In this document: piece after piece, positions 1,552 to 2,500 of the stretch
How the letters are laid out: the number at the start of each line of letters is the position of its first letter
Numbering within the stretch: the stretch's first letter is position 1
Assembly (NCBI GenBank): GCA_000756795.1
Contig: CCSI01000005.1
Coordinates: 1-64,000 of the forward strand
Direction: 5' to 3'
From: Qipengyuania vulgaris
Lineage (GTDB): Bacteria; Pseudomonadota; Alphaproteobacteria; Sphingomonadales; Sphingomonadaceae
DNA: 64,000 nucleotides
Program-made: the position numbers and the translations under genes
The notes under the pieces: generated by a model
What the model saw: the letters and a program-made list of their open reading frames with translations, nothing else
Told to the model about the DNA's origin: nothing
Database searches by the model: none

Positions 1552-2019
1552 GTGCTCAAGGATTTCAAGGCTTTCATCGCCAAGGGTAACGTCATGGATT
1601 TGGCGGTCGCCGTCATTATCGGCGCAGCTTTCGGGGCCATCGTCAAATCGCTGACCGACGAGATTATCATGCCGGTGATTGGCGCGATTTTCGGCGGGGC
1701 GGATTTCAGCCGCTATTTCATCCTTTTGGACACGCCCGAGGGATATGATGGCCCGCTCGACGATTACGCCACGCTGCAGGAGGCGGGCGCCGCGATGATC
1801 GGTTACGGCAGCTTTATCACCGCCGTCATCAATTTCCTCATCCTGGCATTCATCGTCTTCCTGCTGGTGCGCTACGCCAAGAAAGTGATGGCCGAGTTCG
1901 AGGAAAAGGAAGAGGCAGCACCCTCGGGCCCGACCGAGCTCGATATCCTTAAGGAAATTCGCGACGAGTTGCGCGCCGCGCGCCCGGACTATGCGCCTGA
2001 AGAAGGCCCGATGGGGTAA
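1552..2019 (+). CDS. mscL: Large-conductance mechanosensitive channel MscL
   Basis: The protein has 155 residues beginning LKDFKAFIAKGNVMDLAVAV, the signature N terminus of MscL. The start is the GTG at 1552, preceded by GGAGGG at 1539-1544 with ideal spacing; the longer open frame upstream has no ribosome site and would spoil the N terminus. TM1 spans about 15-40 with the Gly/Ala-rich gate helix. A periplasmic loop (about 47-85) follows, then TM2 (about 88-107) and a charged cytoplasmic helix ending in LDILKEIRDELR. The channel opens under membrane tension to release solutes on hypo-osmotic shock. The monocistronic gene diverges from lemA. Confidence 0.97.
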   Translation: MLKDFKAFIAKGNVMDLAVAVIIGAAFGAIVKSLTDEIIMPVIGAIFGGADFSRYFILLDTPEGYDGPLDDYATLQEAGAAMIGYGSFITAVINFLILAFIVFLLVRYAKKVMAEFEEKEEAAPSGPTELDILKEIRDELRAARPDYAPEEGPMG

Positions 2020-2029
2020 TATTTGTTGC

Positions 2030-2099
2030 GTGCGGGTCGGACCTCCGTCCGACCCTTGCGGCTGGTGCCGCAAGTAAAGCGCGGAGGCGCTTTCCGCAC
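2030..2099. repeat. Cloverleaf-like palindromic element (three tetraloop hairpins inside an outer stem)
   Basis: Three perfect hairpins stand in tandem: stem 2034-2042/2047-2055 (9 bp, loop CTCC), stem 2056-2062/2067-2073 (7 bp, loop TGGT) and stem 2076-2082/2087-2093 (7 bp, loop GGAG). They are enclosed by an outer pairing GTGC(GG) 2030-2035 with (CC)GCAC 2094-2099. A further CCGAC/GTCGG hairpin follows at 2100-2115. Loops one and three are complementary. The element lies between mscL and tmRNA, has no coding content, and lacks the U-run of a normal terminator. Confidence 0.8.
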
Positions 2100-2121
2100 C
2101 CGACAGACAGGTCGGATACAC

Positions 2122-2149
2122 TTCACATTAAGCGATTGATCGCTATATG
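2122..2149 (+). promoter_or_regulatory. Putative promoter of the tmRNA gene
   Basis: TTCACA (2122-2127), a 16-base spacer containing the inverted repeat AGCGAT/ATCGCT, and TATATG (2144-2149) lie just upstream of the first tmRNA helix. Transcription would begin near 2156. This is pattern-based inference. Confidence 0.4.
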
Positions 2150-2155
2150 GGACCT

Positions 2156-2500
2156 GCCGGTGCGAGCCGGATATGGCGATAAATTGCGCCGTGTAATAGG
2201 TACAACGGACCCGGGGGCAGTACCCGGCGGCTCCACCATAACCCGCGGAATTTGCGCGGTTTTTGACGGGGCCGAACTAGGATCGACGTGTGCTGAAAGA
2301 CGGTGTTTTCGTCCGGGCTGAGTAACCCGTAAAACTGTTCACAACACACAAGTGCCAACGATAACGAAGCACTCGCTCTCGCAGCGTAATTTGACGGCCT
2401 AACGGCCTGAATTTACAAAGCTAAAGCGCGGTTGGACCCACCGGGCAACAGAAGCGGATTCCGGGGCTCCGGGGGTAGCTAGCAACAGAAACCCCCACCT
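2156..2500 (+). ncRNA. ssrA: Transfer-messenger RNA, circularly permuted two-piece form
   Basis: tmRNA rescues stalled ribosomes and tags nascent peptides for proteolysis. The acceptor half comes first. It has a T-arm CCGGG/CCCGG (2211-2215/2223-2227) with the atypical loop GGCAGTA, an acceptor strand CGGCTCC (2228-2234), discriminator A and an encoded CCA (2236-2238). A 29-base spacer follows (2239-2267). The coding half starts with GGGGCCG (2268-2274), which pairs with the acceptor strand over 7 bp and creates a G3-U70 wobble, the alanine identity element. The resume codon GCC is at 2354 and the tag reads ANDNEALALAA with stop TAA at 2387-2389. Downstream hairpins include GGCC/GGCC and CGGT/ACCG. 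The outer ends are approximate. Confidence 0.93.
2471..2496. terminator. Possible terminator hairpin between tmRNA and the convergent lipoprotein gene
   Basis: GGGGG (2471-2475) pairs with CCCCC (2492-2496) around a 16-base loop. It sits at the 3' edge of the tmRNA and just beyond the stop of the convergent gene. No long T-run follows, so it may instead be a tmRNA helix. Confidence 0.3.

Follow-up and report, generated by a model that had tools for sequence, protein, structure and literature searches.

What is a 70-base sequence that can fold as a closed cloverleaf doing between mscL and the tmRNA gene of Qipengyuania vulgaris? The window, the whole stretch of 64,000 nucleotides that was analysed, holds this fold at 2030-2099, and an earlier, sequence-only reading had suggested that it could be a mobile palindromic unit, an RNA-processing signal or a regulatory RNA. 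Comparison with other genomes identifies the stretch as a shortened copy of a scattered, non-coding intergenic repeat of Sphingomonadales. We put at roughly two in three the probability that this repeat is a non-autonomous, dispersed element that works in a REPIN-like way and is built with two unlike side arms.

A cloverleaf within a larger conserved element

The fold lies where the sequence-only reading placed it. An outer stem of GTGCGG (2030-2035) with CCGCAC (2094-2099) encloses three hairpins that can be read directly from the sequence: 2034-2042 with 2047-2055 around the loop CTCC (2043-2046), 2055-2062 with 2067-2074 around TGGT (2063-2066), and 2076-2082 with 2087-2093 around GGAG (2083-2086). 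G2034 and G2035 are common to the outer stem and the first hairpin, and C2055 to the first and second hairpins, so that the listed pairs cannot all form simultaneously. As RNA, 2030-2099 reaches a minimum free energy of -45.6 kcal/mol (z -5.90), and none of 200 shuffles folded equally well.

The clover is real, but the conserved element is larger than the 70 bases first described. Covariance model R1, which matches on both strands, together with dispersed homologues, places the short form at 2022..2107, with no strand assigned. On the forward strand it consists of a left terminal conserved stretch, TTTGTTGCGTGC (2022..2033, from the consensus of 120 ends); side arm 1 (2034..2055), of stem type beta by arm typing, GGGTCGGAC, with the loop CTCC; a middle hairpin (2055..2074) with the loop TGGT, shortened to 8 bp from the stem of about 40 bp in full copies; side arm 2 (2074..2095), of stem type gamma, reading inward as GGAAAGCGC, with the loop GGAG; and a right terminal conserved stretch, GCACCCGACAGA (2096..2107), the inverted counterpart of the left end by the end consensus and R1. 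The R1 match to 2022-2107 has an E value of 4.8e-21, which is not independent because the window copy is among the model's training sequences. The independent evidence for a repeat is the dispersed copies found by BLAST, which predate any model.

Full copies are about 155 bp long and combine TTTGTTGSGTGC ends, two side arms and a long middle hairpin. Both ends share TTTGTTGSGTGC and a 9-bp hairpin, inverted relative to each other, and terminal inverted repeats are present, with TYTTTGTTGSGTGC as the consensus of both ends. In alignment A1 (57 condensed elements, three of the 60 having been dropped by length), the clover with loop pairing has 84.7% of cells paired, against 70.7% when shuffled, and a covariation score of 0.407 against 0.155, which none of 500 shuffles attained; neither the pairs with two-sided change (28 versus 26.5) nor the further pair types (72 versus 76.2) exceeded the shuffles. 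The rival fold, a single long hairpin, is 64.2% paired against 70.5% when shuffled, and all 500 shuffles were at least as good. Pairing reaches 93.8% and 95.5% in the two side-arm helices, where 14 of 18 pairs show two-sided change. It is poorer in the outer helix (74.0%) and at the foot of the middle hairpin (73.2%), and 44 of the 57 elements leave one outer position, S, without a partner.

Compensatory change in the stems, which the sequence-only reading had proposed to look for, appears in this covariation and also between orthologues. Across 24 orthologous comparisons, not all of them independent, 48 of 432 arm pairs had changed: 16 are fully compensatory and 8 are wobble pairs, but 24 are broken, which indicates that copies also decay. 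In palindromes, compensatory change can also arise without selection on the fold, through template switching or conversion between copies.

Dispersal across the order

When 2000-2480 was used as a query against 60 same-genus genomes, the tmRNA side was conserved, mostly from about 2114 or 2119 onward, and the 2020-2105 part matched scattered places elsewhere. The scattered matches were repeated with 2018-2108 as the query in 16 of the 60 genomes. The genome-wide covariance-model search named in the sequence-only reading did find copies: R1 matches occur in 24 of the 60 same-genus genomes and in 41 of 396 genomes of the order, all 41 in one family and spread over 11 of 84 genera, with 11 candidates scored per genome in the order search and up to 77 in the genus search. 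As many as 49 matches per genome were recorded in the genus search, both strands counted. A full-copy query matched 36 of the 60 genomes at E<=1e-10; this is not a count of whole elements, as at most 14 candidates were scored per genome and some matches lie in the middle hairpin alone (for example the best ones in G003, G014 and G030). Scanning with a pattern for one arm type gave 74 stretches, from Novosphingobium, Qipengyuania, Erythrobacter, one Sphingomonas and one Proteobacteria MAG.

Copies at unrelated sites are up to 93.7% identical between genomes and 91.7% within one, which indicates spread from common sources. Two contigs of 274 and 291 kb, read whole, hold three loci each. The window's genome has this copy and a second between rpsL and rpsG, and further holds a solitary gamma arm and middle-hairpin-type sequence. 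Phages gave no match to the query L042:1387-1554; three plasmid records were matched by the query L246:1500-1670, with coverage of at most 60% and chiefly in the middle hairpin. Short forms of about 75-90 nt recur (L327, L328, L331, L338, L339, L344 and others), with differently truncated middle hairpins, and some are apparently common to more than one genome.

The two side arms differ in type

The main discovery of the analysis is a rule of different arms. Arm stems in the genus fall into three types, alpha, beta and gamma, assigned by our own nearest-consensus rule. The 60 non-redundant elements, cluster representatives of 80 distinct sequences (93 raw) at loci picked by BLAST with two queries, comprise 22 beta-gamma, 19 alpha-gamma and 19 alpha-beta pairs and no pair of like arms, against a shuffled mean of 19.7 alike (0 of 20,000 shuffles as low); fixed-length detection loses copies with indels. 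A test that uses no types found at least 6 of 8 stem bases alike in 1 of 75 elements, against 14.6 in within-genome shuffles (0/20,000). In a small further set of 16 clusters, some of which look spurious, at least 7 of 9 bases were alike in none against an expected 1.7, short of significance, since 2,804 of 20,000 shuffles were equally low. Among 24 Novosphingobium-type alpha-arm stretches, taken from 23 of the 74 pattern-scan loci, 17 have a downstream hairpin of 7-13 bp, one or more of them perhaps by chance, and none has an alpha stem there.

Calculated energies favour the clover in 51 of 57 (RNA) and 53 of 57 (DNA) condensed elements given an artificial tip loop, and in 0 of 114 hypothetical same-arm elements. 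These models suggest that different arm types favour the clover fold over a single long hairpin.

Alternatively, the arm differences may merely reflect the loss of long perfect palindromes from genomes or assemblies, with the clover itself functionless. An element with two like arms would form a near-perfect palindrome of about 150 bp, which may drop out of short-read assemblies, and shortened and single-hairpin forms do exist. Avoidance alone, however, would not need each side arm to keep its own 9-bp stem, at the levels of pairing and two-sided change given above, and a middle hairpin of about 40 bp is tolerated. We consider this explanation unlikely.

In 41 of 60 elements the S base (A1 columns 8 and 75; ends TTTGTTG[S]GTGC) reads C at one end but G at the opposite one, which leaves the outer stem with a mismatch that recurs. 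Of 38 alpha arms, 30 have G there.

Arm change at shared sites and placement beside genes

Different arms occur at the same chromosomal sites. At 20 multi-species sites with both flanks alike, all of them covering loci already known to carry an element, 17 have two or more arm configurations; of the pairs of copies at the 20 sites, 71 differ in their arms, 20 have them swapped and 35 agree. The site between mscL and tmRNA is one such case, where G047 and G050 have their arms in opposite order and G052 keeps a single hairpin. Arm change at fixed sites would be expected from exchange or conversion among copies and also from repeated insertion at preferred sites. Arm changes at sites common to species can be read as a record of exchange between repeats.

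The elements are also placed in a particular way. With overlaps of up to 60 nt allowed and a home-made gene caller, 59 of 60 are clear of called ORFs, and of 51 non-divergent copies 39 have an end no more than 10 nt from the 3' end of a called gene. For co-directional gaps the figure is 26 of 38, against 10.0 under uniform placement (0/20,000), and 10 of the 38 come as close (10 nt or less) to the 5' end of the other gene.

Such placement would suit a host 3'-end element, that is, a transcript stabiliser, RNase site or terminator substitute selected at each gene, with mobility long past. The occupation of 20 sites in at least two species, the short simple hairpin that relatives carry instead in the mscL-tmRNA gap and the structured elements between rpsL and rpsG in several genera all point the same way. 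Against this, 36 of the 60 genus genomes have no model match (strict filters lose weak ones) and the arms differ at the same site. The S base has no consistent orientation to transcription (C,G in 12 and G,C in 12 of 38), and the window copy has no terminator-like T-run. We regard selection at each gene as improbable.

An intrinsic terminator was considered and rejected, as none was called within the element, whose leading end is rich in T and whose trailing end is rich in A, the reverse of what a terminator would have; the sequence-only reading had been right to see no terminator here.

In the rpsL-rpsG gap, several genera have large structured elements (L346, L241, L243, L354, L360, L371, L372 and L376), many with a like right half that ends in a hairpin and GCACTCCGAAGGAG beside the rpsG start. 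They may represent a control element of the str operon that has been domesticated. In G022, which matches the window's genome best, the two genes are separated by no more than a short gap.

Mobility, mechanism and relation to known repeats

Of the three possibilities first suggested, the mobile palindromic unit fits best, given that copies are dispersed, intergenic and present at many unrelated sites. Direct traces of insertion did not turn up, however: at offsets of -6 to 11, matches of at least 4 nt that could mark a target-site duplication occur in never more than 1 of 60 elements, and no clean empty site was found at G050/G046, mscL-tmRNA or rpsL-rpsG. RAYT as a general mobiliser was rejected, because its domain (Y1_Tnp) scores above the cut-off in only 5 of 60 genus genomes. 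Among copy-rich genomes, G046, G047, G052, G025 and G033 have no Y1_Tnp, and G050 has one, which scores 43.9 bits against about 140 for the strongest.

The two side-arm hairpins may be the sites that an enzyme supplied in trans recognises on folded single-stranded DNA or, alternatively, those bound by a protein on the transcript. Unlike arms would stop the strand from collapsing into one long hairpin, thereby keeping the clover and avoiding a near-perfect palindrome of about 150 bp. Recombination between copies would exchange arms and invert elements, and same-arm products would be lost. The window copy would itself make up the untranslated 3' end of mscL, ahead of a putative tmRNA promoter, and may at most act as a barrier at the 3' end of the mscL RNA. 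A bolder version of this scheme has a self-spreading element locked into the clover by an obligatory different-arms rule, its arms exchanged as cassettes at fixed chromosomal sites and served by a hairpin-recognising enzyme other than RAYT. We offer this version tentatively and would not expect it to hold in full.

In the part of PMC3116915 drawn on here, REPINs, the partners of RAYTs, are described as non-autonomous and extragenic, with two inverted hairpin-bearing units around a spacer. Our element is likewise non-autonomous and extragenic, with two inverted palindromic units and a spacer. Unlike a REPIN, which on our reading of the phrase 'GI, GII and GIII REPINs' in that part of the paper draws on one REP group, it has side arms that differ (0/60 alike). 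Further differences are the rarity of RAYT, the middle hairpin of about 40 bp and the total length of about 155 bp. It is an unusual variant of the REPIN/BIME kind of intergenic repeat, and we do not file it as a REPIN because two family features, a RAYT partner and like units, fail. The BIMEs of enterobacteria, with their Y and Z REP types, are intergenic mosaics of inverted, unlike palindromes. The present element differs from them in having three arm types in all three unlike pairings, TTTGTTGSGTGC ends and other hosts. The legend of Figure S11 of PMC3116915 sets a stable long hairpin against a 'clover' fold and expects the clover to be recognised; a natural family with unlike arms that favour the clover makes this contrast, as that legend words it, testable.

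MITEs such as Correia/NEMIS, RUP and ERIC are described in the portion of PMC2229807 used here as short, intergenic and bounded by terminal inverted repeats, with effects on RNA for NEMIS and ERIC. The element resembles DDE-type MITEs in its terminal inverted repeats and departs from them in its three-armed clover, its unlike side arms and the lack of a target-site duplication. Within the window and 18 loci, Rfam matches above the gathering threshold were confined to tmRNA, tRNA and RNase P, and a known Rfam family was accordingly rejected for the element, on which none passed that threshold. The best matches below it, microRNA families on the middle hairpin (E 9.9e-8, 47.7 of 84 bits), are taken as long-hairpin likeness. 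The literature searched contained no published description of the repeat family, and we do not claim its absence elsewhere in print.

Loops

The loop in the genus is mostly NTCC, inverted (GGAN) at the other end, and its conservation there is strong: of 120 ends, 119 have T as the second letter, 111 have C as the third and 115 have C as the fourth. Across the 24 orthologous comparisons, 9 of 192 loop letters differ; the stems have 67 changes in 864 letters, the middle hairpin 196 in 2,078 and the ends 79 in 576. Outside the genus the partner-arm loop is more variable, and a GGAN loop closes only 7 of the 17 downstream hairpins in the Novosphingobium-type stretches.

The loops CTCC and GGAG of the window copy are complementary, as had been noticed, because the same kind of loop sits in both arms, once in each orientation. 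All four loop positions could pair in 48 of 75 elements, G-U allowed. In simple shuffles, agreement at loop position 1 (49/60 versus 39.3, 0/20,000) and over the whole loop (37/60 versus 30.2, 56/20,000) is raised. The covariation at position 1 vanishes when shuffling is done within genomes (56/75 versus 54.1, 4,312/20,000; power is low where elements per genome are few), and agreement in the small further set is 7/16 versus 6.7. The idea that the loops are a pair selected to kiss gains no support from these comparisons. We read the loop as a recognition site first, and only possibly as a partner in a loop-loop kiss. A Shine-Dalgarno role, raised for GGAG and CTCC in the sequence-only reading, is weakened by the finding that the commonest loop is ATCC/GGAT rather than CTCC/GGAG.

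The tmRNA gap

The mscL gene lies at 1552..2019 on the forward strand (Pfam MscL, E 1.2e-43 over 1552-2016; the start codon is our reading), and the element starts 2 nt past its stop codon. Outside the element, a permuted alphaproteobacterial tmRNA follows on the same strand at 2118..2462 (Rfam alpha_tmRNA, 223.3 bits), placed by ARAGORN at 2143-2480. A conserved forward-strand block, CACTTCACATTAAGC...CTATATGGGA (2119..2152), is kept ahead of tmRNA in the compared tmRNA loci. We infer that it is the tmRNA promoter; a sigma-70 scan called no promoter at this block, and the Rfam tmRNA match starts within it.

A cis-acting RNA element of tmRNA, either a processing signal or a leader, with a functional kissing loop could be imagined from the stable fold, the complementary loops, the adjoining gene and the occurrence of elements in the same gap in G009, G047 and G050, with a single hairpin in G052. 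However, the element lies upstream of the putative promoter block, its arm order at this site varies between species and its loops showed no covariation in the within-genome shuffles. R1 matches the gap in only 5 of 32 tmRNA loci searched, with a sixth weak match, the loci coming from 32 of the 60 genomes (the 30 best tmRNA matches plus G047 and G052, added because BLAST hinted at an element there). With most copies near other genes and so few tmRNA loci matched, the link to tmRNA looks incidental; the suggestion of an RNA-processing signal was not borne out, and a processing or leader role was rejected on position and distribution. We consider a cis-acting tmRNA element very unlikely.

GGA in a hairpin loop is the CsrA motif, and one arm exposes it on either strand, but a CsrA/RsmA-type decoy RNA was rejected, with a negligible chance of being right, as CsrA (PF02599) matched one of the 60 genus genomes and none of the 57 of good quality.

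Relatives without the element (L010, L012, L014 and L022) have a short CCCCT...AGGGG hairpin in the mscL-tmRNA gap, possibly an ordinary mscL 3' end. A second instance next to a structural RNA gene is an R1 match in another genus (L232, 1072-1484), which adjoins the gene for RNase P RNA.

Among alphaproteobacterial repeats, the part of PMC2229807 cited here describes the CIR repeats of Caulobacter and Brucella as structured, intergenic and partly MITE-like, about 110 bp long, with two arms, a linker and GANTC at a terminal loop. The present element is likewise a structured intergenic repeat of alphaproteobacteria. It differs from the CIR repeats, as that part describes them, in its loops, mostly NTCC/GGAN, and in the place of GANTC, which is rare inside the elements (2 in 9,202 bases) and favours one fixed outer position. 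Of 120 ends, 22 have the motif starting at a distance of exactly 17 nt outward from the arm; its background frequency, taken from two contigs, is about 0.0012 per position. GANTC is the CcrM methylation motif, and its outer-flank occurrence is seen in several loci, for example L050, L113 and L128.
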